From the NCBI GenBank assembly GCA_019448385.1, contig JAGTXO010000049.1, forward strand, positions 43,501 to 107,500: DNA of 64,000 nt. The letters run 5' to 3'. The position numbers were made by a program, and so were the translations under genes. The notes under the pieces were generated by a model. That model was not told where the DNA came from. It ran no database searches and saw only the letters and a program-made list of their open reading frames with translations. The stretch comes from Diacronema lutheri (taxonomy: Eukaryota > Haptophyta > Pavlovophyceae > Pavlovales > Pavlovaceae). Below are positions 2,163 through 50,401 of this stretch, one piece after another. Numbering within the stretch: position 1 is the first letter of the stretch; each line of letters begins with the position of its first letter.

Positions 2163-2201
2163 CTCTTGACTGTCGAGCTCGAGCAGGCGGCAAGAGCCAC
2201 G

Positions 2202-3101: not shown

Positions 3102-3159
3102 AGCTCTCAAATCGCGTTTGTTTTTAGTCTGCTCCGATAAATTGCCCTCCGACTGCGAG

Positions 3160-4923: not shown

Positions 4924-5126
4924 TCTGGGTGGCCGCCAAGCGACCGGAACTCCCGCGCGGGATTTCCGGTCGCGTCCTTTTTTCTGCGGACGTCCTGCTG
5001 GGATGCCTGCCGCCTGCAGGTCTGTGTCTCTTCGCGGGGCGGGGGGAGTCCAGGGACTGGATCACAAGGTGGACGAGACAGTCGGACAGCTCGCGCACAC
5101 TTGTTTCTCCTTCCCTCCCCTGCAGC

Positions 5127-5780
5127 TCACACCAACACACCGCCGCCCGCCGCCGCCGTGCGCCTGCCAGAGATCAGCCGCGAGAAGAACCCACCTCGAC
5201 CCGACCGCGACCGGTGGCCACCGGTGCCAGGGCCAGGCGTGGCGGCGGGCTCCAGCACGCACGACTGCGTGACCGGCGGCGGCGGTGGCGCGCTGCGCTC
5301 GTCGACAAATCGTGGCACGGCGCCTGTTGCCGCCTCCGCACCCGAGCCCGTCGCGAGCACGACCGCCACGCGCGCGGACGGCGCGCCGTCGCTCGCGGCG
5401 TGCCGGCTCGTGACGTCCGGTGTGTACACCTCGCTCGCGTCGCGGAATGAGAGGGCAAGGCCGCCGTGCACGCCGCGAGCGGAGTCGGCCGTGCGCCACG
5501 AGCGCTGCAGCCGCACGTACGCGTCGCGCTCGCTCTCGCGCGTGCGGTCGAGAAGCGCCGATCCGCCGCGCCCCGCTCCACCGCCGCCATCGTCATCGCC
5601 GCCCGCCGAGTGCGCGCTCGCGTCCGAGCCGCGCGGGGCGCGCTGCTCGCGCTCGGAGCACGCGGGCACGTAGACGGCGTCGGCCAGGTGGAAGGCGCAC
5701 ACAGAACTGATTCGCCTGTCGCACGGCGTGCCGATCGGCGCGCACGCGCCGACGGCGGCGGGTGGGTCGCCTGCCGCGCG

Positions 5781-5812
<32 letters not shown>

Positions 5813-7100: not shown

Positions 7101-7169
7101 TGGGCCGTTACAGCCAAGGGTTTCCCTCTCCCTTTTGACTTTTCAGATTTGGGGCGTAACGGCCCAATG
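7098..7169. repeat. 14-bp perfect inverted repeat at a start codon
   Basis: CATTGGGCCGTTAC (7098-7111) and its exact reverse complement (7156-7169) flank a 44-bp spacer. The left arm contains the ATG of the stalk-protein gene on the minus strand; the right arm gives a mirror-image ATG on the plus strand. It could be a symmetric promoter/operator or an mRNA hairpin covering the start codon. Confidence 0.75.
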
Positions 7170-7301
7170 ACGTGCGCAAGAAGAGGATGCATGAGCTTGT
7201 GCCGCGGACGGGGAGGATTGCGCATTTTGATGCGACCTGCTCGCGCCAAAGGCACTCGCTTCCACGCTCTTGGCATCGTGGTTCGCTCGCTTGCACGCGC
7301 A

Positions 7302-10300: not shown

Positions 10301-12492
10301 CCCGGACGGCAGCTCCGACGCGGGCGCGCCGGGGGCGGGTGACGCGCCGAGGGCGGAGTCGGCGGGCGGAATGGGCGCGGTCGGCGGCGTCGCGCCGCTC
10401 CGCTCGCGCGAGAGCGGCCACATGTTGCCCCACTGCGAGAGCGAGGGCATTCTACCGAGCGACGCGCCGGTCGGCAGCGCCGCGGGTGGCTCGCGCGCGC
10501 CGGGCAGGGTGGGCGCGGAGCCGGCGGCGGTGGCGTCGCGCGTGGCCGTGCCGCCCGTGCCCTTCCCCTTGCCCTTCCCCTTGCCCTTCTCCTTGCCGCG
10601 CGAGCCGCCGATGTCGCCCAGCCTGCCCGAGGTGCCGTCCGTCGTGAGCTCGGCGTCCCACGAGAAGGTGCCGCCGTCGATGCGAATCTGCACGTCGCGC
10701 GCGTCGGGATGGCGCGTGGCTGCGCGGCCCACCTCGATCTCCTTGAGGTTGAAGAAGCGCTGCAGCCTCGTGACGCTCACATTCGCATCGGTGAGCATTG
10801 CGAGCACCATCGGGTACATCATCAGTGGCATGCGCAGCTGGCCGAAGAGGGCGAGGGCGGTGAAGATGACGGGCACGTTCTCGGCTGAGATCGAGTTGCC
10901 CAGGTGCACGTACACGCCGAACGTGGCGATCGTCGTGAAGGCGGGCGCCGCCTGCAAGAAGACCGCGTTGAGCGCCTTGAGTGCACTCTTGGTGCGCAGC
11001 ATGGAGAGCTCGCGCTCGCGCAGGGCGTGGATGCGCTGTAGGAACGCCGCCTCCCACGCGTAGAACTTGATGATACGGATGCCCTGCAGCGCCTCGTTGA
11101 TCACCTTGATGCGCTCGTCCGTGTACTTGGTCGACTGCGCGGCCGACGTGCGCGCGCGCGCAGCGCCGGTGCGCGTGCGGCGCGGTGAGCGGCGCGCACG
11201 TCGTCGCGCGCGGCGACGCGGCGCGCGGCGACGCACCGCACGCTGGTAGACGCGCATGAGGTTGGCGAGGTACATGGACGTCGGGATGAGGAGCAGGATG
11301 CCCGCAACGCCCGCGAGCGACGCGGGCCCGAGCGTCGCGTAAAGCGATGCGACGATGAGGACGATCGTGGCGATGCCCGACCACACCTGGTGGAGCATAA
11401 CGACGCACATGAGCAGCTTCTCGGTGTCGAGCTGCATCAGGTTGACCATCTGGCCGAGCGAGTTGGCCTGCCGAGCGGTGGGCGTGAGCGCGAGCGCCTT
11501 GGCGAAGATGAAGTGCATCACCTCGGCGCGCACGTTGAGCGCCGTGCGCATACTGGGATGTCGGGGCGATATGGGGAAGGGACGGGTGGTGCGGATCGCA
11601 TACGACATCAGTGCGGCACGGCGCGAGGCGCGAGGCGCGAGGCGCAGGGGGCGCGAGAGCAGCCGCGTGCTGCCGCGCGGGTGCGTGCCGCCGCCGCGCG
11701 CGCGCACGTGATCCTGAAGAAGTGATTCTCGAGGAGGGTCTTGACGGCGAGGACGAAGCAGAGGAGCGCAGTCCACACGAGGCCGACCTTCAAAGGGCTG
11801 CGCTCGGTGATGACCTGCAGCAGCTTGCCCAGCACCCAAAAGGGCGCGACCTGCACAAAGTTGAGCACGAACTGCATCACGCCCGTCGTCACCAGGTCGC
11901 GCCCGTGCAGCTGCCGCCACGCGCGAAAGAGCGAGCCTTGTGCGCCGCGCGCGCGCGCAGCAGCCACGTCCGCCCTGTACGTCGCGGCGAGCAGCTCGCC
12001 GCGCTGGCGCGAGCGCTGCGAAGCGGCAAGCTCCCACACGTCGGTACTCTCAAGCTCTTTGCTCGCGCCGAGGCGCATCAGCGAGTCAGTCCACCTGCCG
12101 CGGGCGCGCGCGCGGACGGCGCACGCGTGGCGCGGCGAACGCGTCGCGCGCGCGCCGGCGGCGGGTCAGAGGGGTCGGGCGCCGCGCGCAGCCGGGGGAC
12201 GCATGCAAACAGAGGTGAGCAAGGACGCGTGCGGGACGACCTCGATGGGCACAGCACGCGTGCGCTGCGGCCGACCGGCCTGCCGCCCGCGGCCGGCGCC
12301 GCGCAGAGGCAATCAAACTCGGCATTCGCCCCGCGCGCGGCGCGCGCACCACATGGTCACCCAGGAAAGCCAGCCCGCATCCGCCTCGTGCGTCACCCGC
12401 TCGCCCTGCCTGCGCGCCGCGGGCGCATCCGCGCCCGCCTCCTCCACGTCCGCGAGCTGGACGTGCTTCTCCACCACGCGCATCTGCGGCAT
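7302..12492 (-). CDS. ABCC/MRP-type full-size ABC transporter
   Basis: A 1,491-aa export pump of the multidrug-resistance-associated (ABCC) type without an N-terminal TMD0. Exons: 12492-12350, 12094-11708, 11552-11237, 11134-7810, 7606-7302; all introns are GT-AG and frame-consistent (255, 155, 102, 202 nt). The L0 start reads [20 protein letters not shown]. Two membrane domains alternate with two nucleotide-binding domains. NBD1 has Walker [12 protein letters not shown], signature [15 protein letters not shown] and Walker [16 protein letters not shown]2 has GRTGSGKSS, a degenerate signature [15 protein letters not shown], and [11 protein letters not shown] assembled across the last intron. 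A Gly/Lys-rich linker precedes NBD1. ABCC proteins move glutathione or glucuronide conjugates, often at the vacuole or plasma membrane; the substrate is unknown. The start is 71 bp from the divergent gene at 12564. Confidence 0.92.
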
Positions 12493-33996: not shown

Positions 33997-36900
33997 TCAC
34001 TCAAACTCCTCCCACGAGAAGGCGTCGGCGGGTGGCGCCATCGTGAAGAAGACGTGTTCTCTGACCGGGTCCTCCGGGTCGACGCCCAGCCGCTCGCCCT
34101 TCTCGACGGCGACGAGCTGCGCAATCAGCAGCTTGAGCTCCATCGACGCGTGCGCAATCGCCATCACCGTCCTCGAGCGGTCGGGCCGCTGCGAGATCCG
34201 CTCGAGCACCGCGTCGACCGTTGGCCCGTCGAAGAGCCGCTCGGCGGTGACGAGCTCGAAGATGACGCAGCCGAGCGCCCAGTACTCCGACGCGACTGAG
34301 TAGTCGAGCGAGCGCACGACCTCGGGCGCCATGTACGGCGGCGTGCCCACGCGCCGCGCCGCCACCGGCGCCGCGCCGCGCTGCGCGTGCGCGTTCTGCG
34401 CCGCGTCGCCCGCGTCGCCCGCGCCCGACGACGAGGCGGACGCCACCTCGGACGGGCGCGCGGCGTGCGGCACGTGCCCGCTCGAGAGATGGACGGGCTG
34501 CGAAGTCGCACCCGACTCGCGCGCTGAAGCCGGTCGCGCGCACAGCGCCCAGCCGGGCTGACCTCGGCCCGGCGAGCCCGGCGTGCTCGCGCCCGCAGCG
34601 CTTGGTGCGCGCGACTGCGCACCGGACTGCGCACCGGACTGCACTCCGGACTGCACACCGGACGCGAACGGTTTGGCCGACGAGGTGGCGGCCGCGAGCG
34701 AGAAATCGGGCGCGCTGCCGCGCCGTCGGTGCGGCTGCGAGCCCGCCGGCGCCGCCCGCCGCTCCGGCCCGTGCGGCGGCTGGCGCGCGGGCGGAGGCGG
34801 CGGCGCCCATGGCTGCACGCGCGTCGAGCCGGGCGATGCGCCGTCGCGCGCGCTCGCGCCGCCGTCCGCCGCGCCACGCGTGCGCGCCGGGCGGCTCGAA
34901 GCGGGCGGCACGGCGCCGAACGCGTCTGCGCCGGATTGGGGCGCCGGGGACGGCAGCTCGCGGCCGATGGGCGGCAGCGCCCGCGACGGCGCTTCGCTCG
35001 CCGTGCGCGCACGCGCAGAGGCCTCGCGAGCTGCGCTCGTGTCGGCGTCGCCGATCGCCGGACTGCGCGCGTCCTCGCCGCCATCGCTGCCGCCGCCGCC
35101 GCCACCGCCGCCCACGTTGGCGCACAGCCCGAGCGGCGCGGCGCCCGAGGCCGCGTGTGAGCTCGTGCTCGCGCGCGCGCCGTGCGACGCTGTGGGGACG
35201 CACGATGCGGACCGCCGACGCACGCGCGCACTGGCGCGCCTGCGGTCGCGCGCGGCGACGAGCATCTGCACGAGCTCGGCGCACGATTCGGCAGCGTGTG
35301 CGCCCGAGCTCGAGAGCGGCAGCAGCACGTAGTCGTGTATCACCTCGCGCGCGAGCAAGAGCACGAGCGCGTCGAAGGCCGCCATCGTTGTGCCCGCGCT
35401 GTTGCCCGCGAGCTCGGCGGCGGGTGGCGGCGCGCTCGGCTGCGTGGCCGCCGAAGCGGAGGCCGCACAGCCGAGCGCGGCGTCGAGCTGCGAGACGCTC
35501 AGCTCGAGTCCGAGCTGCGCACGCTGCAGCACGGCAATCACCGGCGCGTCCGTGCGCGCACTCAGCCAAGGGATCGGCACGCGCGCGTCCGGCTGTAACG
35601 GCGGCTGTAACGGCGGCGGTTGCGCGGAGGGCGCGGCGGCGTGCGGCGGGTCGGCGGCGACGCGCTGCAGCTCGGGGAGCAACTCGTCGAACGAGACGAG
35701 CAGCGCGTCCGCCTGCACGGCGCTCTGCCACGCCGTGCCGCCGCCGTGCGCGTCGTGGAGTGCACGCATGTTCTGCCACGCGCTGCACACGACCGACGCG
35801 CCGCCCGCTCCGCCCTCGGCCTCGGGCGCGTCGAGCGCGGGCGCAGTGCGCGAGAGTGCCGCCTCGAGCGCGGTTGCCACCGATTTTCCGACCAGCGCGA
35901 CGCGCAGCGCGCCACCACTCAGACCCGGCGCGCCGGCCGCAGCGCCGGCCGTCGCCGGCCGCGCGAAGCCGTGCGCGCCGGTCGAGCCCATCACCTTTTG
36001 CAGCGTGGCGAGCGCGCCAAACGCCGAATCGGACGCACCGCACCGCAGCGGCGCGTGCGGCGCGAGTTCTGCCGACGGTGCGTCAACGTCCGGGCCCACC
36101 GCCTCGGCTTGCGCTGCATGGGCGCCCACCGCCTCGGCTTGCGCTGCGTGGGCGTTGGGTGGTGTGCGTGCGGGCAGCAGTGCGGAGAGGCCAAAGTCGA
36201 CGAGCTTGAGCCGCGCGGCGCCGACGAGGATGGCGTTCTCCGGCTTGATGTCGCGGTGCAGCACGCCGAGGGCGTGAATCGTCTGCAACGCGAGCACAAA
36301 CTGCGCGGCCACCGTGCGCACCAGCGCCTCTGGCAGCCGCACGAACCGGTGGCGCGCACACAGCTGGGAGAGGGGCATACCCGCGACGTACTCGAGGACG
36401 AGGTGGATCGCGCTCGGCTCGGCGATGACGTGGAGCAGCTGCACGATCTGCCGCCCCCTGAGCGACGCGAGGATCTTGAGCTCCGCCTGCACGTGCTCGA
36501 GCTGCAGCGTCGACCTGCGCAACGTCTTGATCGCGACGCGCTCACCCGTCGCGCACGAGGTGGCGAGGCGCACGCGCGAGAAGGCGCCGCGGCCGAGCGG
36601 CCTGCCGAAGATGTAGTCGAGGTGCAGCGAGCCGATGCCCTCCGCGCCGCGCCCGCTCGTGTGCGGGCCGAGGCCGACGCACGCGAAGACGAAGAGCGCT
36701 TCGTCGCCCTCCACCTCGCACACGCCGGGCGCGGACGACACGACGGTGGCGGTCGAGTCTGTGCGTGCGAGCGCAGGCGTCGGTGGCGCGAGGCACGCGC
36801 GCCGGAACGAGCCGCTCGCGGCGTCGGGCAGCGCGGCCGCCGCGGCGCACAGCCCCACGTTCGCGCCCGCCGAGCCGCGCGCGGGGCTACTCGACGGCAG

Positions 36901-39900
36901 CGCCGCGCCAGGCTCGACGGCGCGCGCGCTCGCAGCGGCTTGAGCGGCCGCACCGCCCGCGCCCAAGCCGAACGCATCTGTGCCGGCGTACGAGCCGCTC
37001 GGCAGCCGCTCGAGCGCGGCGCGCGCGAGCGCCGTGCGGCCGAGCATCGACGCGCACGAGTGCGCAAACGACGAGCGACCGACGCGACTTGCGGCGCGCG
37101 CGCTCGGCGTCGCGTGGCGCGGCGAGGGCGCACGCTCGGCGGGCGAGCCCGCGCCGGACGGCTGCTGCGCGTCGCGCTGCGCGAGCAGCAGCCGCGCGAA
37201 GCAGAGCCTGCGCTTCACGCGGCGCGAGAGGAGTCGAGTCTGCGCGCGCGTGAGCAGCACCGCAACGCCCAGCTCGCGCGTCGGTGCGTCGGCGCGCGCG
37301 AGGCGGTCGAAGGGCGTGCCCCACGAGCAGAAGGCGAGGCGCGCGCCGGTCGCAAGCACGCCGCGCACGATCATGCCGTGGAGCACGCTCACCGTCACGC
37401 GCAGCCGGACGCGGTGCCGCTCGTTGAAGCCATCAAGTGCGCGCTCGAAGCGCGAGACGAGCTCGAGCGACGCCTCGAGCGCGCCGTTGAGCGCGCGCTC
37501 GTCGCCCTCGACGTCGGCTGCGTGCGCGCTCGACCCGTCGGCCGCGCCGCCTGCCAGCGCCACGCCGCCGCCATTGAAGTGCGCCGAGCGCCGCACGAAG
37601 CTGCTGCCGCCGCCGCTGCCGCTGCCGTTGCCGCCGCGGCGCGCGCGTGAGCTGCCGCTCCCGCCACGGCCGTCCGAGCGCGCGCCAACCAACGCGGGCG
37701 GCGGATCGCACGGCGCGGTCGTCGCGCGGCCGCCGTGCGCATCGCGCGCGTCGCGGTCGAGCGCGCCCTCCCACGTGAGGCCGCTGCCATCCGGCGCGCG
37801 CTCGCCTCGACGCGCGTGCGCCGCGCCGCGCGGGCGTGTCGGGTGGACGAGGATGAGGTACTCGGAGGAGAGGCCAAAGCTCGAGGCCTTCTCGCAGCGC
37901 GGCGTCGAGGCGATGAGCTCGTCGAGCAGCGCGTACAGCTCGGTGAAGACCGTGAGCACGTCCGAGGCGGAGAGCAACTTGTATAACGACGCCTCGCCCG
38001 ACAGCCGAACGGCGACGAGGCCCGTCACGTACGAGGCCATGTCCGTCTCCTCGAGCGACGCGTACGTGAGCGGGAAGGAGGGCGGCAGCAGAGAGCGCTG
38101 CAGCGCCAGCTCGTTGCGCACACCCTCGGACACCTCGAGCCGGTACGCGTCGCGTTCGATGCTCCGGCGCGTGAACGCAACGGCCTCGCGCACGCTCGCG
38201 TGCTTGGCGTGCGTGCCAAGCGCGCAGCCGAGCGCGAGCCAGCCGGCCGCCGCGCCGCCGGCACCGCCGCCCGCGCCGAGCGAGCCGCCGAGCGCGCCGG
38301 TGAGCGCGCCGAGGCCGGCGGCCGCGCACCCACACGCCGCCGCCGCGTGCGCGCGCGTGCTCGCCACCGGCAGCCACACGGTCGCCCAGAGCATCGACGC
38401 GGCCCAGAGAAGCGCAGTTGTGCGTGCCGCCGCGCCCGCGGCAAAATCCCGCCGCTCCGCGAGCAGCGCGACGCACAGGGCGCGCGCGAGAAGCAGGGCG
38501 CTCGCGCACGCGAGCGCGGCGGCGGGCGCGAGGCGCGCGCGCAGCGCGGCGGCAGTGGCGCGCGCGTCCGCCCACAGCCGCGCGCCGCGCTCGTGCGCGC
38601 CGAGCGGCGCGATCGGCTCGTCGTCGTCCACCGAGCCGCGTCGCAGCACGCGCGCCACGACAAGTGGCGTGCGCACCATGCCGTGCTCGAGGCCGCCGTT
38701 TGTGCCATCGTCGCTGCCGTCGCGCGCCACGCCGCCGTTGGACAGCGCCGCGGCGCGCGCCGCGCCGGCGCGCATAAAGGCGCGCGCAGCTGCGCGCCTG
38801 CCGACCGTTACAGGCCGCGTCGCGCCGGGCGCCGGCTCGCTCCCGGTGCCGACGCGCGCCGCACGCGCACAGAGCGGGCGCGCGCACCGCGCGTGGCATG
38901 CGCGCCGCGCCCACGCGGGCGCGAACCGGCCGAGGGCGAGCGCGGCCGCGAGAACGAGCGCGGCCCCCGCGCTGAGCGCGAGCGCGAGCGCGTGCAGCGT
39001 GACGTAGGCGCGCGCCGCGCCGCGCCGCGCGGCGGGCGCGCATGGCGCGCGCTCGCACGCGCGCGCGGGCGCGCACGCGAGCGCGCACGCGAGCAGCGCG
39101 AGGAGCATCGCGAGCTGCGCGAGCGGCGCCTCGGAACCGAGCGACACCCACGCGATGCGCGCGCTCATTGCTCCGCGCAGCCGCGCGTGGTCGAAGTGCG
39201 GGTCGAGGACGAGAACTCGCGCGCGCCCGCGCAGTGCGGGCAGCCGCAGCACCGCCCACGCGCGCACGTTCTGCACGAACCACACCTCGACCTCGCGGCC
39301 GGACAGCACCGATTCGGCTGCCAGTTGGCGGTCCGCGTCGTCGCCCGCCAACGTCGCCGCCGCCGCCGTGCTCGCCGAATGCGCGGACGCGGACGGCGCG
39401 GAGATGGACGGCGTGCGGCTCGACGCGCTCGGCGGCCGGCCGTGCTCGTCGCCGTGCGTCGCGTGCGCGCGCGGCTCCGTGTCCGAGCGCGCGGACGGGC
39501 GCGGCGACGTGCAGGCGGTCGGCGGCACGCGCGACGCCGGCGCGCGCGGGCTGGCGTGCGAGAGCGGCGCGCGCGGCGCCGTGCTCGCCTCGGCCGACGC
39601 CGGCCTTTGCGCGCCCACGCCGGCGCGGTCGAACGCCGCGCCGCCGCCCGCCACGCCACGCATATGCGTCTCGTCCTCGCGCCACGTGACGCCCTTGACG
39701 CGTTCCGCCGTCACGGCGCGCAGCAGCACCGGTCGTTGGCCGACGGGCGCGGTGGCGCGACGCGTCGAGGAGGCCACGAGGCGTGGCGCGGACACCGCAG
39801 GGTGCTCCGCGCCGCGCGCGCGCTCCTCAACGCCTGCGTGCGCGCTGGCCGCGCGCGGCGGCATCTCGCGCACGGCCCGTGCGCCGGCCGCGCGCCACCG

Positions 39901-42891
39901 CGCGCTCGGCAGCGGCGAGGTGCTCGCGCGCGAGTCGTGGTGCGAGCCGGCCGTGCGCGACGAGCGCGAGCCGGCGGAGGCGGAGGCGCTGATTGCGCAG
40001 CTGCCGGCGCCGTTGCTCGGCCAGTCGAGCGCCGATTCGATCCTCTGCGCGCCGGTCGCGCGCGCGGGGGCCACGGGCGCCACGCGCGCGCTCGGCGCAA
40101 CGAGCCACGACGTGCGACAGCGGGAGCGCGGCGCGCTCTGCGTGTGCGCGCGCAGCGCGTGCACGAGCCACACGCTCTCCCCGTCGTCGTCGTCGCCGTC
40201 GCTGTCGCCGCCGCTGCCGCGGCGCTCTGCCGCGCGCATGGCGCGCGCCGTGCCCACTCCCGGCACGCCCGACCACGGCGCGCCGCCGACCGGCGGGACC
40301 GCGCCGAGCCGCGCCCTTCCCGCCGGTAGCGCGCCACCGCCACCGCCACCGCCGCCGTCCGCGTGCTGCGCGGACGGCGCGTCGGGCCCGTGCAGCAGCC
40401 ATCGTGCGCGCTGCAACCGGAGCGATGGCTGCTCCGCCCATGAGCCGCGCGCAAAAGCCAAGCGCGACCTGCGCCCAGCCGCGCCCGGCGTCTGCTCGCT
40501 CAACCTCGCGCGGCGCGCGTCTGACTTTGCGCCCGACGTGCGGCGCGAGCCCGGCAGCGACGACGCCATGCGCGTCGGCAACGCGGCGCTCGCGTCGACG
40601 CGCGCTCCCGTCGCCGCCATCGCGCCCGCCTCGATGTCAGCGCGCGCGTCGGCCGGCGCAGGGCTCGGCGAGTCAGCGCGCATCGACGTGCCGTCCGCGC
40701 GCGCGCTTGCGCTTGCGCGCGCGCCCGGCGTGGCGAACGCAAGAAGCGTCGAGCGGATGCCCGGCGCGGGCGACGCGCTGCGCGCCGGCCGCGTGCCACG
40801 CGGCTCGGCGGCCGCGTGCTGCGCGCGGTGGCGCGGCATTAGGTAGTGTAGCGCGCCCTGCACAACGAGTACTTCGCTCAGCTCGGCCATCAGCTGCTGC
40901 AGCGCCGCGCTGTGCGCCGGGGCGTGCGTTCCGACGGAGGTCGTAAGCGGGAGGGGCCCGCTCGGTGGTACGTGCCCGTGGCTTTGCACGTGCTGCTGCT
41001 GCAGCGGAGGGTCGGCGAAGCGGCGCACGCCAAACGCAAACGGCGCGTCGCGATCGCCCCCCTCGAGCAGCGCGAGGACCTGCTCGGTGAGCACGACACC
41101 CGACGATGGCCGCCCGCCGCCGAGCTCGCGCGAGACGGCGGGCATGTGCTGGCTGAGCGTGGCCGCTGCCGTGACCGCGTCGCCCCAGAGGCCAAACGAT
41201 GCGCCCGACGTGCTCCGCTTCGAGGCAAAGCCCTGCACCACGTGCCCACAATGCACACCGATGCAGAGCTGAGTACCGAACGGGGCGAGCGCCGCCCGTC
41301 CGATCGCAAACGATCCGCCCGAGCCGCTCCCGCCGCCGTCGGACGCGCCGTCGTCGAGCGCGACGGGCGCGGGCGCGGCGGCGCTGCCGCCCGCGCCGAT
41401 GCAAAAGCTGCCGCCCGTAGGCGGCAGCGTCTGCTGCTCCGCGCCCGCGCGCCTGTCAGCGCCGAGCTCGCGCCCGCGCCAGGCATCCACGGTGCTCGCG
41501 CGCCCGCGCCGGCCGTCGACGAGCGACTCGCGCGCGCCGCGCCGCGCGTCGGCCGCGGCGGCGTGCGCTGGCGGCTCGAAGAGGCGCGCGTGCGCGCGCA
41601 CGATCTCGAGCGCGGCCTCGAGCGCGTGCGCCACGTCGCGCGCGCCGAGCTGCGCGCGCGCCTGCGACGAGGCGAGGAATGCGCTCGCCGAGATCTGCAC
41701 GAGCGTGAGGCCGTGCAGCGCGAGCGCCCGTTGCGCGTGCGCGAGCAGCTCGGCAAGGATCTCGGCGGCGGCGAGCGCAGGCTCCCGTCCGCGCGCAAAG
41801 TGGGCGTGCAGCCCGTGCACGCGGCAGTGGAGCACGAGCACAAACTCGTGCTCCATCACCAGCGGCTCGTGCACGCCCGCCGCGCCGTCCGCCGCGCGGT
41901 CCGCCGTCGCGCCAGCCGCGCCGCCCTCGCCACCCTCGCCGCCCTCGCCGCCGCGCCCGAGCGCGTCGTCGGCCGCGCGCGCGCGGCGCGCGGCCACCTG
42001 CGCGATCACCGCGCGGTACGCGCGCGGAGGCAGCGTCGCGGCGAGCAGCCGGTCCGCCTTGTGTGCCACCGTCGTCATGTCGAGCCGCGCGCGCGACGCG
42101 TCGACCGACACCTGCGGCAGGCGCGGCGGCGCGGGGGCGGGGTAGCCGGCGCGCCGAGCCGCGGCGGCGGGCGCGGGTAGGGAGCGCGCGGCGCGCGTGA
42201 GCCGGCGCCGGCGCGTCGCGCGCGGCGCGTCGCCACTCGGCGTGCGCACCCGGTAGAAGCTGCGCTCGGCACGCTCGCGCGAGATTGCAATCGCGAGCTC
42301 GGCGCCCACGAAGAGCGCGAGCGCCAGCCATAAGCCGAGTGCGTCAACGACGGACGCGGAGCTCGGCGTCTCGGCCGCGCCGCGCGGCAGCTCGAGCGCG
42401 TCTGAGATGCCGAGGGCGGCAGCCTCGAGCAGCAGGTGCGCGCCGTACGCGCACGTGCTGAGCGCGATGAGCGGCACCGACTCGCTACACAGTAGCGGCG
42501 GCCGGCCGAGTGCGGCGCGCGCTACGAGCGCGGGCACCGCAGGCAGGAAGATGCCGGCCGCGCCGAACGCGCCCTCGCAGCAGACGAGGCCGAGCATGCC
42601 GACCGCGTGATGCGCGTAGGCGACTCGCGCGACCCACGCGGCCGGCACGGCCGCACGGCAACGCCCGCCGGCCGCCGACGCGCACGCATCGACGAGCAGC
42701 CACGCGAGCAGCGCGAGCCGCGGGCCGATGCCCGCGGCCGCAGCCGCGCGAGCGGCGCGCGGCGGGAGCGGCGCGCTCAGCGCGAGCGCAGCCGTGCAAA
42801 GCCACATAGCCGCGCCGAAGCCGTGCGGCACGGAGCGCAGCCGCCTTCTCCGGAACGCCGCCTCGTCCCGCGCGTCGTCAAATGCTCGCAT
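33997..42891 (-). CDS. Giant membrane cyclase-like/Ser-Thr kinase fusion
   Basis: One uninterrupted 2,964-codon frame. Order: six hydrophobic segments (~20-240, e.g. LALLAWLLVDACASAAG); a class III cyclase-like domain (~345-615, TQLCIGVHCGHVVQGFASKR and SFGLWGDAVTAAATLSQH); a ~640-residue low-complexity linker; a second six-segment block (~1255-1565); a second cyclase-like domain (~1610-1890, FCSWGTPFDRLARAD); then a kinase (~2090-2960). The kinase has GRGAFSRVR, VAIKTLRR, HRDIKPENAIL, LVDFGLS and VGTPPYMAPEVV, so it looks active. It ends at EHVFFTMAPPADAFSWEEFE, an AGC-like boundary without C-tail. Between DFG and APE lies a ~600-residue insert. The cyclase-like domains lack the usual metal-binding Asp residues (HCRVHG and VAVRLSG at the first site), suggesting sensory pseudo-cyclases. 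The ATG at 42891 is chosen as the first before TM1. Confidence 0.83.
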   Translation of the reverse strand: MRAFDDARDEAAFRRRRLRSVPHGFGAAMWLCTAALALSAPLPPRAARAAAAAGIGPRLALLAWLLVDACASAAGGRCRAAVPAAWVARVAYAHHAVGMLGLVCCEGAFGAAGIFLPAVPALVARAALGRPPLLCSESVPLIALSTCAYGAHLLLEAAALGISDALELPRGAAETPSSASVVDALGLWLALALFVGAELAIAISRERAERSFYRVRTPSGDAPRATRRRRLTRAARSLPAPAAAARRAGYPAPAPPRLPQVSVDASRARLDMTTVAHKADRLLAATLPPRAYRAVIAQVAARRARAADDALGRGGEGGEGGEGGAAGATADRAADGAAGVHEPLVMEHEFVLVLHCRVHGLHAHFARGREPALAAAEILAELLAHAQRALALHGLTLVQISASAFLASSQARAQLGARDVAHALEAALEIVRAHARLFEPPAHAAAADARRGARESLVDGRRGRASTVDAWRGRELGADRRAGAEQQTLPPTGGSFCIGAGGSAAAPAPVALDDGASDGGGSGSGGSFAIGRAALAPFGTQLCIGVHCGHVVQGFASKRSTSGASFGLWGDAVTAAATLSQHMPAVSRELGGGRPSSGVVLTEQVLALLEGGDRDAPFAFGVRRFADPPLQQQHVQSHGHVPPSGPLPLTTSVGTHAPAHSAALQQLMAELSEVLVVQGALHYLMPRHRAQHAAAEPRGTRPARSASPAPGIRSTLLAFATPGARASASARADGTSMRADSPSPAPADARADIEAGAMAATGARVDASAALPTRMASSLPGSRRTSGAKSDARRARLSEQTPGAAGRRSRLAFARGSWAEQPSLRLQRARWLLHGPDAPSAQHADGGGGGGGGALPAGRARLGAVPPVGGAPWSGVPGVGTARAMRAAERRGSGGDSDGDDDDGESVWLVHALRAHTQSAPRSRCRTSWLVAPSARVAPVAPARATGAQRIESALDWPSNGAGSCAISASASAGSRSSRTAGSHHDSRASTSPLPSARWRAAGARAVREMPPRAASAHAGVEERARGAEHPAVSAPRLVASSTRRATAPVGQRPVLLRAVTAERVKGVTWREDETHMRGVAGGGAAFDRAGVGAQRPASAEASTAPRAPLSHASPRAPASRVPPTACTSPRPSARSDTEPRAHATHGDEHGRPPSASSRTPSISAPSASAHSASTAAAATLAGDDADRQLAAESVLSGREVEVWFVQNVRAWAVLRLPALRGRARVLVLDPHFDHARLRGAMSARIAWVSLGSEAPLAQLAMLLALLACALACAPARACERAPCAPAARRGAARAYVTLHALALALSAGAALVLAAALALGRFAPAWARRACHARCARPLCARAARVGTGSEPAPGATRPVTVGRRAAARAFMRAGAARAAALSNGGVARDGSDDGTNGGLEHGMVRTPLVVARVLRRGSVDDDEPIAPLGAHERGARLWADARATAAALRARLAPAAALACASALLLARALCVALLAERRDFAAGAAARTTALLWAASMLWATVWLPVASTRAHAAAACGCAAAGLGALTGALGGSLGAGGGAGGAAAGWLALGCALGTHAKHASVREAVAFTRRSIERDAYRLEVSEGVRNELALQRSLLPPSFPLTYASLEETDMASYVTGLVAVRLSGEASLYKLLSASDVLTVFTELYALLDELIASTPRCEKASSFGLSSEYLILVHPTRPRGAAHARRGERAPDGSGLTWEGALDRDARDAHGGRATTAPCDPPPALVGARSDGRGGSGSSRARRGGNGSGSGGGSSFVRRSAHFNGGGVALAGGAADGSSAHAADVEGDERALNGALEASLELVSRFERALDGFNERHRVRLRVTVSVLHGMIVRGVLATGARLAFCSWGTPFDRLARADAPTRELGVAVLLTRAQTRLLSRRVKRRLCFARLLLAQRDAQQPSGAGSPAERAPSPRHATPSARAASRVGRSSFAHSCASMLGRTALARAALERLPSGSYAGTDAFGLGAGGAAAQAAASARAVEPGAALPSSSPARGSAGANVGLCAAAAALPDAASGSFRRACLAPPTPALARTDSTATVVSSAPGVCEVEGDEALFVFACVGLGPHTSGRGAEGIGSLHLDYIFGRPLGRGAFSRVRLATSCATGERVAIKTLRRSTLQLEHVQAELKILASLRGRQIVQLLHVIAEPSAIHLVLEYVAGMPLSQLCARHRFVRLPEALVRTVAAQFVLALQTIHALGVLHRDIKPENAILVGAARLKLVDFGLSALLPARTPPNAHAAQAEAVGAHAAQAEAVGPDVDAPSAELAPHAPLRCGASDSAFGALATLQKVMGSTGAHGFARPATAGAAAGAPGLSGGALRVALVGKSVATALEAALSRTAPALDAPEAEGGAGGASVVCSAWQNMRALHDAHGGGTAWQSAVQADALLVSFDELLPELQRVAADPPHAAAPSAQPPPLQPPLQPDARVPIPWLSARTDAPVIAVLQRAQLGLELSVSQLDAALGCAASASAATQPSAPPPAAELAGNSAGTTMAAFDALVLLLAREVIHDYVLLPLSSSGAHAAESCAELVQMLVAARDRRRASARVRRRSASCVPTASHGARASTSSHAASGAAPLGLCANVGGGGGGGGSDGGEDARSPAIGDADTSAAREASARARTASEAPSRALPPIGRELPSPAPQSGADAFGAVPPASSRPARTRGAADGGASARDGASPGSTRVQPWAPPPPPARQPPHGPERRAAPAGSQPHRRRGSAPDFSLAAATSSAKPFASGVQSGVQSGAQSGAQSRAPSAAGASTPGSPGRGQPGWALCARPASARESGATSQPVHLSSGHVPHAARPSEVASASSSGAGDAGDAAQNAHAQRGAAPVAARRVGTPPYMAPEVVRSLDYSVASEYWALGCVIFELVTAERLFDGPTVDAVLERISQRPDRSRTVMAIAHASMELKLLIAQLVAVEKGERLGVDPEDPVREHVFFTMAPPADAFSWEEFE

Positions 42892-43012
42892 AGCTAACCG
42901 ACGACATGGACGTTGCGAAACAAATATACCCATAATAGAGACGGAGGGAGGAGGCCGCCGCGCCGCCCAACCCCAACGTCGCGCTGCGCGAGTGAGACTT
43001 GGGCGCACGCCA

Positions 43013-43226
43013 GGCCGTGCGCGGCGCGCACACGTGGACGGACGCGCCATGTGCATGGTCGGCGACTTCAGTGACGAGCACCTCGACGCGGACATCTGGA
43101 ACTTGGGCGACGGCGTCGGAAGAACACGCCGCAGGAGCGCGCCTCCTTCGCCACGCTGCTCGCCGTGAACGGGCTGGTCGAAGGGTGTCGCACGCACCAA
43201 TCGGATGCGTCTAACTGCTCCACCTT
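43013..43226 (+). pseudogene. Decayed fragment of the AP endonuclease gene
   Basis: This stretch aligns to the AP endonuclease gene at ~44256-44500. Shared words include GTGCGCGGCGCGCA, GACGGACGCGCC, CGCAGGAGCGCGCCTCCTTC and GCCACGCTGCTCGCC. Its frame gives DGRAMCMVGDFSDEHLDADI against DGRAVCVIGDLNVAHLDADI. A ~30-bp internal deletion after the ADIWN codons and other changes break the frame, and no N-terminal or C-terminal part is present. It is a truncated, non-functional partial duplication in direct orientation, ~1.25 kb upstream of its source, lying in the 392-bp gap between the giant kinase gene and the intact gene. Confidence 0.85.
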
Positions 43227-43283
43227 CTGATCTACGCGCACCAAGGGCCGATTTGGCAATCCCGACGAGGCTGTGCGAACAAC

Positions 43284-44690
43284 ATGGACGAGCTCAACCC
43301 GAGACATGTTCCCAGCTGCAGAGCTGGTTGCTTGATTTTCCTTTGCCCAGTTGGTTGCATGCGCACGAGAGCCGCGTCACTCCTGCTGCTCGTCGCGCCG
43401 CACGCGCAAGCGCACCAGCTCCGCCTCGCGCGCGCGCAGCTGCTCATGTCGCCGCGGCGCTTGGTGCGGAGTCCCGATGCTCACACGCGCGGGGCGATCC
43501 GGGCCGACGAGCGACAGCCCGTTTCGCCGGCCGAGCCGGCCGCCAGCGCGCGCAAGCGCGCGCCGCGCGCGGGCGACGGTGCGCCACCGGACGAATCTGT
43601 GGCGAAGCGAGCCATGCCGGCTGCTTCCAAGAAGCGCGCGGCCGCGGCTGCCACTGCCGAGGCTGCGATGCCCGTCGCTGAGGCGGCGCCGGCCGCCGCC
43701 GGCGCCAAGCTGTCGCGCGCCGGGCAGCTCGCCGCGCGCGCGCTCGTGCCGCGCGCGCTGACGCCGCGCCGCGCGCCGCCCGAGAAGGCCGACGACTCGC
43801 TCACGCTCGTGAGCTGGAACGTGGGCGGGCTGCGCGCGTGGCTCGCCGACGCCGCGCGCCGCGCCGACCTCGCCTCGACCGCGCTCGCCGCATGCCCCAA
43901 TGGGCCAGACATCATCTTCTTGCTCGAGACGAAGCTCCAACCCGGCGCGATGGAGGAGCAGGCGCGCGAGGCGCTCGGCGAGGCGCTCGAGGGCTACGAC
44001 GCGCACTTCTTCAGCTCGTCTGGCGCGAAGAAGGGCTACTCGGGCGTCTGCGCGCTCGTCCGGCGCGCATGTCAACTGCCGCTCGAGGTGGTGCGCGGCA
44101 TCGGCGAGTGCGACGATGAGGGCCGGGCGATCACGCTGCGCACGGCGCGGCCGGGCTGCGCGCCGCTCGACGTGGTCGGCGCGTACGTGCCCAACTCGGG
44201 CGAGGGTCTCAAGCGCCTCGACTACCGCGTCGGTGAGTGGGACCCGGCGCTGCGCCGGCATGTGCGCGGCGCGCATGCGGACGGACGCGCCGTGTGCGTG
44301 ATCGGCGACCTCAACGTCGCGCACCTTGACGCGGATATCTGGAATTGGGGCGAGTCGGCGTCGAAGAACAAGGCGCTCGAGAAGGGTGCAGGCCTCACGC
44401 CGCAGGAGCGCGCCTCCTTCGCCACGCTGCTCGCCGAGTGCGGGCTGGTCGACGGCTTCCGCGCGCTCCACCCGGACGCGAGCGGCTGCTTTTCGTACTG
44501 GTCGGTGCGCGCGAGCGGCCGGCCGGTCAACCGCGGGCTGCGCCTCGATTACGCGCTCGTGACTGCGGCGATGGCCTCGCCGGACGAGGCGACGTCCGGC
44601 TGGGCACTGCATGACTGCTTCATCCTCGACGAGCTCAACACGCGGGGCGACCATGCTGCCGTTGCAATCACGCTTGTCAGCCGCGCGTGA
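43284..44690 (+). CDS. ExoIII-family AP endonuclease (APE1/ARP-like)
   Basis: A 468-aa base-excision-repair nuclease that cleaves DNA 5' to abasic sites. Catalytic landmarks: LVSWNVGGLRAWL (metal-side Asn), FLLETKLQ (Glu), GYSGVCALV, VVGAYVPNSG, RLDYRVGEWD, IGDLNVAHLDADIWN (Asp/Asn pair), RLDYALV and the final GDHAAVAITL (Asp-His). The N-terminal ~165 residues are Ala/Arg-rich with a hydrophobic stretch (MRTRAASLLLLVAPHAQAHQ from an internal ATG at 43359), suggesting an organelle-targeting leader. Whether 43284 or 43359 is the true start is open. No intron. A decayed partial copy lies upstream at 43013-43226. Confidence 0.92.
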   Translation: MDELNPRHVPSCRAGCLIFLCPVGCMRTRAASLLLLVAPHAQAHQLRLARAQLLMSPRRLVRSPDAHTRGAIRADERQPVSPAEPAASARKRAPRAGDGAPPDESVAKRAMPAASKKRAAAAATAEAAMPVAEAAPAAAGAKLSRAGQLAARALVPRALTPRRAPPEKADDSLTLVSWNVGGLRAWLADAARRADLASTALAACPNGPDIIFLLETKLQPGAMEEQAREALGEALEGYDAHFFSSSGAKKGYSGVCALVRRACQLPLEVVRGIGECDDEGRAITLRTARPGCAPLDVVGAYVPNSGEGLKRLDYRVGEWDPALRRHVRGAHADGRAVCVIGDLNVAHLDADIWNWGESASKNKALEKGAGLTPQERASFATLLAECGLVDGFRALHPDASGCFSYWSVRASGRPVNRGLRLDYALVTAAMASPDEATSGWALHDCFILDELNTRGDHAAVAITLVSRA

Positions 44691-44858: not shown

Positions 44859-47800
44859 TCAGCACACGCCCTCGATCCGCTTCTCGAGCGGCCTGCGCGT
44901 CGCCGTCGTGTACGCGGGCTCGGTCGGCACCTCGTCCCCACCCCCGAGGCCGGCAGCGCCATCGCTCGGCTCAGTTTCGAGCAGCCGGGCGCTGCTCGCG
45001 CCGAGCCGCTCCGCACGCACCTGCAGCTCCGTGGCGTGCCTCCTCGCCTTTGCGAGTTTGAGCGCGAGCAGCCGCGCGCTGCCTGCGGGCACAAAAAAGA
45101 AGATGAGCGCGACGAGCACGCCGAGCGCATGCTCCCAGATGACAAGCACGACGCAGCGCGCCGTGAGGTACACGTTGCCCGTCTGCACGCTCCAGAAGAG
45201 CTCGTGCTGCGGGTGGGCCTCGTTCTGCGCGAACGCGAAGAAGACTTCCGCGCGCCGCGTCGAGATGCACGCGAACGCGACGACGAGCAGGACGGACGCG
45301 GCGATCGACGCGCCGAGCGCGGGCTGCCACGAGCCAATCCCGTCGACGCGCGCGGGCACGACGCGCCGCCACGCGCGGTTGATCTTGATCAGGTCGGTGC
45401 GTAGCTCAATGTGATTATTTACCCAGCACGTCAGCGGCGTGAGTGGCCAGATGACCGTGTACGTGGCGACGTACCCGATGAACAAGATGACATCATAATA
45501 GTCGTCCTGCGTGCTGTACGGCCACAGCGTGCTCTCCTCGAGCGCCTGCTGCTCGATCGGCAGCAGCGGCTGCGCGGCGTCCGCCGCGCGCGCGCCTGGC
45601 CGCGCCGGCTGGGCCGCCCTCGCGCGCTGCGACGCGCGCAGGCGCGCGTGCAGCGCGGCGACGAGGAGGACGGGCAGCGCGTTCTCCGCGAGCAAGCCGG
45701 CGAGCTGGTTGTTCGAGAGCATCGCGATGATCGTGCTGTCGTGCTTGGCCTGCGCGCGCGCGCGGACGCATTCGGCCGTCGGCAGGGGCTGGCGCACGCG
45801 CGGCGCGCGTCGGCGCAGCGCGCACCATCCAGTAATCGGCGTCCTTATCGTTCGAGCGGAAGAGCTTGCCGAAGAGTGGGAATTCGACCTGCGTGAGGTC
45901 GCCCGTGTACGCCTCGATGAGCGGGATGTGCACAAAGCCGATGATGAACGACCACATGTACCCGTCGAGCCAGATGAAGAGGAAGACGTACGCCACGTAG
46001 TTGCGCTCGAACAGGCGGCTGGCGCGCGCCGCGCCGCGTCGCGCGCGCGCGTGAGCGGCGGCGCGGCGCAGTCGCGCGTGCTCTCGCGCGCGCGCGCGCG
46101 GCGGCGGCGGCGCGCCTCACGTGCTCTCCCAGTTCTCGAGGCCGGTGGTCCATCTGGCGACGGCACCCCAGAGCATGTAGTGCCCGTACATGATGAGCAC
46201 GATGTAAAGCAGCGAGTTGAGCACGTACGAGTGCGCGTAGTACGCGAAGGTGTCGTCATCGAAGGCCTCGTTGAGCCACACCCAGTGCGCGTACACGACA
46301 TACTCGAGCAGCACGAGCAGGGCGGCCTGCAGCACGAAGATGGCGAAGGTGGTGCAGAAGGCGGCGAGCCGCGACGAGTAGGGCACGTGCGGCACCACGC
46401 CGCGCACATCGTCGTGCAGCGCGCTGCCGCGGAAGCGCGGGTTGAGCTCGGCCGCCTCGCGCAGCGACGACACGTCCCAGAGGATCGCGAGCTGCAGGGC
46501 GCGCCGCCGCCACAGGACGAAGACCGCCGCGCCCCACAGCACCGTCAGCGACGCGAAGGCAACGTAGCACTGCGCGTAGATGCGCTCCGCGTCGGAGTAT
46601 CGCAGCAAGAAGAGGAGGAGGCCGGCGCTACCGATGGGTGCGATGGCCACGCACGAAAAGTTGAGCAGCGCGTAATAAAAGGCGAGCTCGTCGCCATAGT
46701 GGTCGCGCAGCACGGTGAGCTGCTCGTCCGACAGCACGTATACACCGCGCAGCTCGGCGTGCAGGCTGCTGTTCAGCTCGCGGTCGTGCAGCGGGAAGGA
46801 GGCGCTCACGAGCTCGAAGGGCACGGCCTGCGCTCGCACTGACAGGCCGCCCGCCGGCAGGCGCGCGTGCGACTGGCCGTGCATCGGGTGCTCGGTGAGC
46901 AGCCGCGCGAGCGCGCGCAGCTTGTCCGCCGTCGAGATCGGGCCCGTTGCGCCAACCGTCAGCTCGCTCTCCGCGTTGACGCGCAGCGCGTGCTCGCGCT
47001 GGTGCTCGTCGGAGACGGCCTCCGAGTGCTCGATGAGGACGAGCGCGTGCGGGCCGTGACGCGTGTGCACCTGGCGGACGGTGAAGGTGAGGCCGAGCGC
47101 GCGCAGGTGGCCGAGCAGACGCCGCACGCTTGGCGGGGCCCGCGTGCCCGTCGCCGCGTCGGCGAGCACGTCCGCCGCGGCGGCAGCGAGCGCACCGTCG
47201 CCGTGCACGCCCGCGCCGTACAGCTCGGCGATGGTGCGGGCGGGCGCGGGCTCGCCGAGCGCGGCGTCGAGCGCGGCGTGCTTTGTCACCCAGAACGCGC
47301 GCCCTTCCTCCGAGTCCACGTCCCTGACGAGCAGCGCCCAGAGGAAGGGCGCGCGGCTCTTGTAGAGGACTGGGTAACGCCATTTGATGTGCTGCGCGTG
47401 CCGCGCGGTCTCGGGCAGCTTCTCGAGCGCGTCGCGCAGCTCGCGCAGCTCGGCGAGCGTCGATTCGGACACCGGCGCGTCCGACGCGTCGAACGCGTCA
47501 CGCATCTTGCGCGCGTACACGCCGAGCAGCCGCGCGAGCTGCGCGACGCCGTGCGGCGGCGGCGCGTCGGCGGCACGCGCGAGCTGCTCCGCCTTGGCGC
47601 GCGCCATCGCGGCCAGGGGCGGGGCGCCAAACGGGCGCTGCGCGCTGCCGTCCGCGCCGGCCGCGTCGCCATCCGACGCGTCAGCGGCGGGCGCGCGCGC
47701 GCCGGCGGCGTCGGGCGGGCCGGCGCGCAGGGCAGCGCCTTCGGATGCGACCTCACCGCGCGTGGCGGCTGGCTTTGCGCCCGTGGTGCGTGGCTGCCCG

Positions 47801-49626
47801 ACCTGCGCGGCCACCTCGTGCGAGTGCTTTGCGAGCGCGCGCGTCAGCCCGCCAAGGCCCGCGCGACCGTGTTCGAGCGCCGCGTGCAGCCCGCCCGCCT
47901 CGCGGATCCGGCACGTTGCGTGCGCCGGCGCGAAGCAGAGCGCGAGCCCAACGCCGAGCAGGTTGGCGACGACCACGTTTTGCAGCTGCGTGCGGAAGGC
48001 GGTGTCCGAATAGTGCGGGTGGTCCGCGACGCGTGTGCGCAGCACCTCGCGCAGGATGATGCCGGCGAGCGCGAGCGCGAAGAGGCCGGCCGTTGCCAAG
48101 TAGCCCGTGGATCCAACGGCGTGCCCGCCGTCCAGGCACAGACGAAGCTCGCCCGCCTCAGCCTCGCGCTTGAGCTGCTCGTCCTCCTCCGCGGCGAAAC
48201 GCACGCCGTTGAGCACGAGCTGCAGCGCAAAGCAGACCCATACGAGCGCCAGCGCGCCCTCCGCCGCGAACCAGCCCTCCCACCCGCCCACCGACCGGTA
48301 GGTGGCGCCGGGGTCGACGCGCATCCGCGCGTAGAGGAGCCCGTTGAGCGACAAGCTCGTCGCGAAGATGGCGACGCCGAGCGCGAGCTTGGGCAGCCAG
48401 AAGCCACGCGCGCTCACCGTCCGCGCGCCGAGCCCGTCCGCATACCGCGCGCGCGACTCGTCCGCCGGCGTGCGCTCGGGCGCGTGCGCGATCGCGAAGG
48501 GCAACGGCGACGGCGCGCCCGGCGCGGCGAGGCCGAGCTCGGCGGGCTGTGTCGCGCGCGCGGCGGCCGGCGCGGCGCGGTGCGAGACGCACGGCGAATC
48601 GTGCAGCTGGCTCGCCGCCTGCGGCGCGTACCCGCGCACGCTGTGCGCGCGCCGGACCGTGCGCCGGACCGCACGCATGTCGAGGAGCGCGAGCGCGAGC
48701 ACCGCGCTGCCCGCAACGTGCAGCACCGCCCAGACGGTCGGCGCGAGGTAGTCGCGCGCGCCATCGACGGTGACGAGGGCGCGCGTCGGGTCGTTGTACA
48801 GCAGCAGCACGAGCAAGTAGCCGAGCGTTGCGCGCTGCTGCGGCAGCCAGAGCCGCAGCGCGAACGGCCGCATGTCGCGCGCGTACCGGAGGAGCGCGAG
48901 CAGGGCGATGGCCGCGCCGAGCGTGCGCACGGCCAGGTCGGCGCGGCCAAGCTCGGGCTGGCCGGAGCTCGCCTCGAGCACGACGCCGCGCATCCACTCG
49001 CTCGGCGCGATGCCGTTGCTCACAGCAGAGGGCACGAGCGCGATCTGCACAAGATAATGCCGACGGCTGAGCCCCTGGTAGAAGGCCGCGTTGAAGATGG
49101 AGCACGGCTCGGCGCCGATCAGCACGCGCGGCGGGCAGTCGACGGGCTTGATCGATGGCGCTGACATCTGCTCCTCCCACGGTTGCGTCGGCTCGTCGCG
49201 CGCGGAGATGCGCACGCGCAGCGTGACGGTCGTGTTGGGCAGCAGCCCGCGCCGCGGCTCGGCAAACACGGTCAAGTTGACGCGCAGCCAGCGGCTGTAC
49301 GTCTCCACCGGCGAGAAGGCATACGAGGCGGGCGCACCGCCCACAAAGTCGATGCCCGAGCATGCGCGCACCGAGAAGGCCTCGCGCTCGCTCGGGCAGC
49401 CCGTGAGCGCAACGCGCGCGCTCGAATCCGCGGCCCAATCGCCCGCGACGTCGAGCGCCGCGACCGCCGCGACGAGCGCGAGGACCAGGACGGCAGTGAA
49501 CTTCAAAAGGGTCACGGGCAGCCACGTCGACGCCGCGAGGAGCATGTACTGCGGCTCGCCCATCTCTCCGTGCGGGATCGGCGGTCGGCGTGGAGACGGC
49601 GGCAGGTTTTGCCCGTTCGTCCCCAT
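44859..49626 (-). CDS. WLS/TMEM181-like 7TM fused to anoctamin (TMEM16)
   Basis: A 1,529-aa membrane protein; exons 49626-46121, 46018-45826, 45749-44859, with GT-AG introns of 102 and 76 nt. An N-terminal TM (~30-52) leads to a lumenal Cys-containing beta-rich region to ~210. Hydrophobic helices at ~225-540 then include LPQQRATLGYLLVLLLYNDP, resembling the PEQ/YNDP motif of WLS/TMEM181 seven-TM proteins. After a linker comes an anoctamin: ELVSASFPLHDRELN, LRDHYGDELAFYYALLNFSC, ERNYVAYVFLFIWLDGYMWS, and DDYYDVILFIGYVATYTVIW then NNHIELRTDLIKINRAWRR. Anoctamins are Ca2+-activated lipid scramblases or chloride channels. The two halves share one exon without any stop, supporting a true fusion. 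The start is 82 bp from the divergent hydrolase. Confidence 0.85.
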
Positions 49627-49708
49627 GGCCCTTCCAACAAATTTCCAAAGGCGTTTCATAATTCTTTTAAGGGTGCTATAGAGGTGAAGGTGCCCGCCAG
49701 TATTCTCG

Positions 49709-50401
49709 ATGGCGTCCGCCTTGATCGCGGCGTTCTTGCTCGGCGTGCCGGACGTCCGCAGCGAGAGATTCGAGATCATCACGTCTGACGGCCGCGCGCA
49801 GAGCATCCATGCGCTCGTTGCCGTCCCCGAATCGCCGCGTGGCACTGTGCTCCTCGTCCACGGCTCTGCTTTCTCCGCGCAAACGTGGCATTCGCTCGGC
49901 ACCCTCTCCCTCCTTGCAGACTCGGGCTTCCGAGCCATCGCCGTCGACGTGCCAGGATACGGCTCCCATTTGAGCGGCCGCGAGCGCCTTCGCCCAACCG
50001 AAGCGGCCGAGTTCCTCGCGCAGTTCCTTGACGTCGCGCTCCCGCACCGCGGCGAGCGCGTGGTCTGCGTCGCCGCGTCGATGGGTGGCACATACGCCAA
50101 CCCACTCGTGTCGCGGCACCCTGAGCGCGTGGCGGGGTACGTGCCGATCGCCGCCGTCACTACGACTGAGCTCGGCGCGCCGCACATGCCCGCGCTCATC
50201 CTGTGGGGCGAGCTCGACTCACCAAATTCGGCCAAGGCGCGCCTCTACACGTCGCGCTTCCCGAAGCACCACAAGGTCGTCTTCCCGGACGCGCCGCACC
50301 CATGCTACCTCAAGAGTCCGAAGCTCTTCAATGCCCTGCTGCTCGAGTTTGTCGGAGCCAAGCCGCAGGAGCGATTGCGCGTGCGCGCATCGTGGCGGTG
50401 A
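49709..50401 (+). CDS. ABHD14-like alpha/beta hydrolase
   Basis: A 230-aa serine hydrolase fold. VLLVHGSAFSAQTWHSLGTL and SLLADSGFRAIAVDVPGYGS match the ABHD14A/B signature (LLLHGxxFxSxTWxxLGTL). The catalytic triad is visible: nucleophile Ser in CVAASMGGTYANPL, Asp in LILWGELDSP, His in DAPHPCYL. ABHD14B acts as a lysine deacetylase-like hydrolase transferring acetyl to CoA in mammals; the activity here is inferred only by resemblance. Length fits the family (~210). A hydrophobic start (MASALIAAFLLGVPDVRS) may be a weak signal. No intron. The ATG is 82 bp from the divergent fusion gene. Confidence 0.84.
   Translation: MASALIAAFLLGVPDVRSERFEIITSDGRAQSIHALVAVPESPRGTVLLVHGSAFSAQTWHSLGTLSLLADSGFRAIAVDVPGYGSHLSGRERLRPTEAAEFLAQFLDVALPHRGERVVCVAASMGGTYANPLVSRHPERVAGYVPIAAVTTTELGAPHMPALILWGELDSPNSAKARLYTSRFPKHHKVVFPDAPHPCYLKSPKLFNALLLEFVGAKPQERLRVRASWR

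Follow-up and report, generated by a model that had tools for sequence, protein, structure and literature searches.

General features of the gene

We analysed a 64,000 bp stretch of the genome of the haptophyte Diacronema lutheri (assembly GCA_019448385.1, contig JAGTXO010000049.1, positions 43,501 to 107,500; called the window below, with positions numbered from its first base). Its minus strand carries one very long open reading frame (ORF; 33997..42891, 2,964 codons plus stop) whose product has, in order, a membrane block, a cyclase-like domain (C1), a long linker, a second membrane block, a second cyclase-like domain (C2) and a Ser/Thr kinase. On balance, the sequence comparisons below favour reading this product as a multipass membrane Ser/Thr kinase whose scaffold is a two-domain class III cyclase that no longer serves as an enzyme. 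The best support for the view that the fused layout evolved as a unit comes from a paralogue on another contig of the same genome, which has the same parts in the same order.

A preliminary description of this DNA, made from the letters alone, had claimed a single 2,964-codon frame, and this is correct; the description was silent on the strand, on the missing catalytic residues of the cyclase-like domains, on an insert of about 600 residues in the kinase and on the paralogue. The minus-strand frame extends from stop to stop over 33997-43293 (3,098 amino acids, aa), or 2,964 aa from the ATG at 42891, and the plus-strand frame at 33997-42891 is interrupted by stops. The window has a G+C content of 67-80% per 2 kb. 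Base-shuffled versions of the ORF contain a mean of 33.7 stops, and none of 500 was stop-free. Codon-usage log-odds place the ORF frame at the top of the six frames in 21 of 25 intervals (with a training set of only 4 sequences); four do not favour it, and one of these, at about aa 2641-2760 within the kinase insert, is negative. The G+C content at third codon positions climbs near the ATG at 42891 and is lower before it, and on the opposite (plus) strand a gene that matches Exo_endo_phos begins divergently at 43284, so a start near 42891 fits both features. The motif DEAAFRR lies near this ATG and is common to the window protein and its paralogue.

The collinear paralogue

The paralogue occupies 840191-849283 on the minus strand of contig C4 as a single frame of 3,031 codons, and searches of the genome with the kinase N-lobe, with C2 and with the kinase C-lobe all converge on it. 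In local alignments between the two proteins, membrane block 1, C1, membrane block 2, C2, the N-lobe and the C-lobe each gave a score that none of 300 shuffles reached, and the first linker also scored above all 300, though more weakly. The remaining parts did not stand out in this way: the score of the linker before the kinase was reached by 9 of 300 shuffles, that of the full kinase insert by 17 and that of the insert core by 72. Since the parts are collinear in the C4 gene, the layout represents a duplicated gene family, and we reject a chance read-through of the frame.

Three kinase motifs are replaced in the C4 protein (VAIK by VVRS, HRDIKPEN by VCDLAPSSV and DFG by VGL), which makes it a pseudokinase. 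It groups as the sister of the window kinase (support 100/99) in a tree built from 14 kinases of the genome, with an end branch of 1.82 as against 0.56 for the window kinase. This kinship is carried by the C-lobe, with which the paralogue scores 100.7 bits and the next kinase in the genome 51.8 bits.

The cyclase-like domains

C1 (about aa 345-620, 41032..41859, minus strand) has an internal low-complexity insert, and C2 occupies about aa 1600-1905 (37177..38094, minus strand). Homology to class III cyclases is weak in both but above chance. The Pfam profile Guanylate_cyc (PF00211) matches the whole protein at aa 540-580 with 24.9 bits, against a cut-off of 21.9. A separate profile made from 84 cyclase domains (80 bacterial and 4 from this genome) gives 18.4 bits for C1 and 8.2 bits for C2, each reached by none of 1000 shuffles, and all 44 control segments taken from the window protein and the paralogue score -3.2 bits or lower. 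The window is absent from the matches of Guanylate_cyc across the genome, and single-sequence phmmer searches of the PDB gave no cyclase match for C1 or C2. With C1 as query, the genome yielded besides the window one weak place (C32:390439-390633, E 0.018) with an internal stop; with C2 it yielded the paralogue and three further places, which have E ~0.2 and likewise contain internal stops.

C1 could be aligned lengthwise to 26 bacterial cyclases at 20-25% identity. In this alignment the first metal-binding Asp is replaced by R357 and the second by S403, the base-contact Asp position is G567, the specificity Lys position is Q399, and the transition-state Asn and Arg are T574 and T578, respectively (the metal, base contact, specificity and transition state roles are those that we take these positions to have in class III cyclases). 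The alignment of C2 is looser; neither metal position has an Asp, the Asn position is Asp, and the Arg position is Arg. With these aligned residues missing, C1 and C2 are seemingly dead, so they are probably pseudo-cyclases, and the label "membrane cyclase" probably misstates the function.

The preliminary description had seen in this protein exactly the plan of animal transmembrane adenylyl cyclases. The layout and a weak homology bear this out, but the implied activity does not survive the replacement of the catalytic residues. It is very improbable, for the same reason, that the protein still works as a membrane cyclase and supplies the kinase it carries. Such an enzyme would have the layout of the transmembrane cyclases, as this protein does, and C1 retains a WGDAV motif and C2 an Arg at one position of the catalytic pair; but neither domain has an aligned metal-binding Asp, the Asn is gone in both and the Arg is gone in C1, and in C1 of the paralogue an Arg again stands in place of the first metal Asp. 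We therefore reject it on the C1 and C2 alignments.

A pair of pseudo-cyclases could also still bind a nucleotide or cyclic nucleotide and so serve as the sensor by which the kinase is switched. The similarity of C1 and C2 that has been retained between the window gene and the C4 paralogue would fit such a role, and two genes of this genome with strong cyclase domains are a possible source of ligand. The residues found in C1 at the base-contact and specificity positions (G567 and Q399) speak against it, given the roles we assume for them, and we consider a nucleotide sensor unlikely.

The membrane blocks

At the cut-off that we applied, the first membrane block (aa 24-204, 42280..42822, minus strand) has five predicted helices, with a sixth possible, and the second (aa 1255-1562, 38206..39129, minus strand) has six; the hydrophobic segments themselves lie at aa 24-202 and aa 1257-1562. 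The count of five in aa 20-210 and that of six in aa 1250-1565 were each reached by none of 200 shuffles, with the qualification that the hydrophobicity scale was a crude one and the block spans were picked after the hits were visible. A loose cut-off applied to the whole protein gives 17 segments, a number equalled by 10 of 200 shuffles, while a stricter one gives 8, a number reached by none of 200, and every one of these lies within the two blocks. The corresponding blocks of the C4 paralogue have 5 and 7 hydrophobic segments, and neither count was reached in 200 shuffles. The two blocks of the preliminary description thus stand out above chance; its figure of six helices in each fits the second block, and the first shows five segments.

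The kinase and its insert

The kinase is in two parts. Part 1 (aa 2088-2245, 36157..36630, minus strand) contains the glycine loop, the VAIK Lys (K2122), HRDIKPEN with its Asp (D2214) and DFG (D2232); part 2 (aa 2843-2964, 34000..34365, minus strand) contains GTPPYMAPE, SEYWALG and ERLG and runs to the C-terminus. The Pfam Pkinase profile (PF00069) gives 158.8 bits, and with the glycine loop, the VAIK Lys, the HRD Asp, DFG and APE all in place the kinase looks live, at least by its motifs. The Pkinase check proposed in the preliminary description and the order with a C-terminal kinase thus hold.

That description had called the kinase AGC-like and apparently active. When the insert was left out, a PDB search placed CIPK24 (109.4 bits), PKA (107.8 bits) and NEK1 (105.5 bits) within 4 bits of one another, with MELK also among the best (in the best 60 of 485 matches), so AGC membership is likely at best; the alignment with PKA extends into the C-terminal ERLG ... 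HVFF stretch.

Between the two parts lies an insert of about 600 residues (34366..36156, minus strand), inside the activation segment between DFG and GTPPYMAPE, which is open in frame and cannot be aligned with the insert of the paralogue. The distance from DFG to VGTPPYMAPE is 1,848 nt, about 600 codons, with no stop; base shuffling of the insert alone predicts 6.5 stops, and none of 500 shuffles was stop-free. The middle part of the insert has no Pfam match, a PDB search with the insert gave nothing informative, and a single-sequence structure model of aa 2308-2564 was uninformative (predicted local distance difference test score, pLDDT, 42.4). A receiver domain (REC, PF00072-type), suspected from the hydrophobic spacing, was rejected for want of support: there was no Pfam match, the best score with a REC profile built from 14 of 23 matches in this genome was below 0 bits, and neither the alignment of the two inserts nor the structure model favoured it.

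The kinase that follows the paralogue in the C-lobe search is a Greatwall-like kinase on contig C89 (L157, G000:C89:763500-772000, - strand 412-5637). It has its own in-frame insert of about 250 residues, from DFG to GTPDYMSPE, and its best PDB matches are Greatwall structures. In the N-lobe search, where the best score was 89.9 bits, it has 63.1 bits and is weaker than many other kinases, and in the tree of 14 kinases it is the nearest non-sister row by path, with its fork unresolved. Seventeen kinase relatives were also found in viral contigs.

Proposed function and its alternatives

If the window gene gives one transcript, then a transmembrane-cyclase chassis has outlived its chemistry and has had an effector kinase attached to it, and there are two copies of it whose kinases have gone opposite ways. 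The two membrane blocks would hold the pair of pseudo-cyclases, C1 and C2, so that it faces the cytoplasm; this pair would make no cyclic nucleotide, and would retain vestiges of the fold and, probably, the contact between C1 and C2. A change in the membrane blocks, whether caused by lipid, ligand, voltage or a partner, could move the pair and so free or block the C-terminal kinase, assuming that the latter is active. The insert in the activation segment perhaps carries phosphorylation sites, as in Greatwall. The C4 sister would have kept the scaffold and lost kinase catalysis, and it is perhaps an allosteric or dominant partner in a heteromer.

The preliminary description had proposed a one-molecule relay from membrane signal to phosphorylation. 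Since C1 and C2 lack the catalytic residues, it is unlikely that such a relay makes cyclic AMP first and phosphorylates afterwards; our best guess, which we infer, is still that the signal passes from the membrane to the kinase. We would put forward only tentatively, as something rather improbable, that these proteins make up a novel class of receptor kinases, with a dead adenylyl-cyclase chassis as the transducer and with the live-kinase and pseudokinase paralogues joined in a heteromer. Cyclase membrane blocks have been reported as receptors, according to excerpts of two papers (PMC11606603, PMC4821796). If there is one transcript, our reading would support the notion that cyclase membrane blocks and the C1/C2 pair transduce signals by themselves, and would provide a system in which phosphorylation reports on transduction with no cyclic nucleotide involved.

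A number of points weigh against the reading of this gene as a membrane kinase on a retired cyclase. Cut out alone, C1 and C2 have Guanylate_cyc scores of 17.5 and 17.8 bits (E ~0.003), both below the cut-off, so that the Pfam check suggested for this family succeeds with the whole protein and fails with the single domains. By the 84-domain profile, C1 and C2 of the paralogue score -0.5 and 0.5 bits, and each of these values was reached by 3 of 1000 shuffles. The first membrane block shows five helices and not six, and in a comparison aimed at a possible origin of the pseudo-cyclases from guanylyl cyclases of this genome, the membrane blocks of the window protein could not be aligned with those of a real guanylyl cyclase on contig C32. 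In the kinase, the DxWxxG motif has a Glu (E2869) in place of its Asp, and the N-lobe of the C4 paralogue, at 43.2 bits, falls below many other kinases of the genome in the N-lobe search. The linker before the kinase was stop-free in 93 of 500 base shuffles, so its openness is little proof of anything. Finally, in another kinase of this genome (L020, G000:C13, match 160744-161214, - strand) an intron-like stretch, GTGCGC...CGCAG, lies stopless and in frame inside the GTPYW-APE motif. This suggests that introns in D. lutheri DNA can lie within open frames, and that some of the low-complexity linker sequence or of the insert in the window gene may therefore be intronic.

The last two points also bear on the idea that two adjacent genes, one for a dead cyclase and one for a kinase, have been merged in our reading because stops are rare at about 76% G+C. 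The pre-kinase linker, which is open in so many shuffles and aligns poorly with that of the paralogue, speaks for this idea. The same order of parts recurs, however, in the single C4 frame, and none of the shuffles of the whole ORF was free of stops; we regard two merged genes as quite improbable. A decaying gene without function, for which the degenerate cyclase domains and the dead sister kinase could be cited, is highly unlikely, as the window kinase retains the motifs for catalysis, its end branch is short, and the frame is intact across 8.9 kb.

Other genes of the window and genome

Two other genes of this genome encode a P4-type ATPase together with a cyclase domain. One is on contig C32 (L007, G000:C32:253500-263400, + strand 3-7511; PhoLip_ATPase_C 243 bits, Guanylate_cyc 163.7 bits) and the other on C12 (L008, G000:C12:154000-163900, - strand 5754-9899; 233.5 and 156.9 bits, respectively), and each has a second cyclase domain about 3 kb further on. 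In their alignment the Asn and Arg are kept in the first domain and both metal Asps in the second, an order known as inverted in ciliate and Plasmodium cyclases. These genes represent the P4-ATPase-cyclase fusion in a haptophyte. This fusion was called alveolate-specific in a 2019 paper, as excerpted (PMC6592433), and no haptophyte P4-ATPase cyclase was found among the matches listed in the open-licence literature. A further class III cyclase domain (36.1 bits) lies in an 864-aa frame on contig C83 (L009, G000:C83:195500-205400, + strand 2596-5187).

Beside the C4 paralogue, one frame (L033, G000:C4:851782-855198, + strand) has matches to both OpuAC and Ion_trans_2, an unexpected pairing. Within the window, an anoctamin match is split over two overlapping minus-strand frames (44859-46409 and 46117-50235), so the anoctamin gene is probably spliced, and a frame at 7586-12037, also on the minus strand, encodes an ABC transporter that has two membrane stretches and two ATPase stretches.

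Comparison with known systems

The transmembrane class III adenylyl cyclases (6TM-C1-6TM-C2) have the same order of parts as the first two thirds of the window protein, with weak homology in both domains; unlike them, the window protein lacks the aligned metal Asps and has long linkers and a C-terminal kinase. The receptor guanylyl cyclases, too, are membrane proteins that unite a kinase-like with a cyclase-like domain, but their kinase is dead, their cyclase is live and their domain order is the reverse.

The alveolate P4-ATPase guanylyl cyclases, as described in an excerpt (PMC6592433), have a cyclase domain behind each of two six-helix blocks; in contrast to the window protein they have an N-terminal ATPase, live cyclases and no kinase. 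Human Greatwall (MASTL) has about 500 residues between DFG and APE, according to the excerpted text (PMC5342071), and so shares a large insert at this site with the window kinase (about 600 residues), but it has no membrane or cyclase parts.

The preliminary description had called the layout unfamiliar, and indeed the order 6TM-C1-6TM-C2-kinase was not found among the matches listed in the open-licence literature; the union of cyclase and kinase in one protein is, however, published for the Amoebozoa. Excerpts of two papers report 66 cyclase kinases in Acanthamoeba and 43 in Physarum, with the cyclase domain between two kinase domains (PMC4053784, PMC4758236). Like the window protein, each of these is, as far as the excerpts go, a membrane protein that combines cyclase-type with Ser/Thr kinase domains, whereas the window protein has two pseudo-cyclases, two membrane blocks and a single C-terminal kinase. 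Since cyclase-kinase fusions are thus already known, the D. lutheri protein is a new arrangement of known parts.
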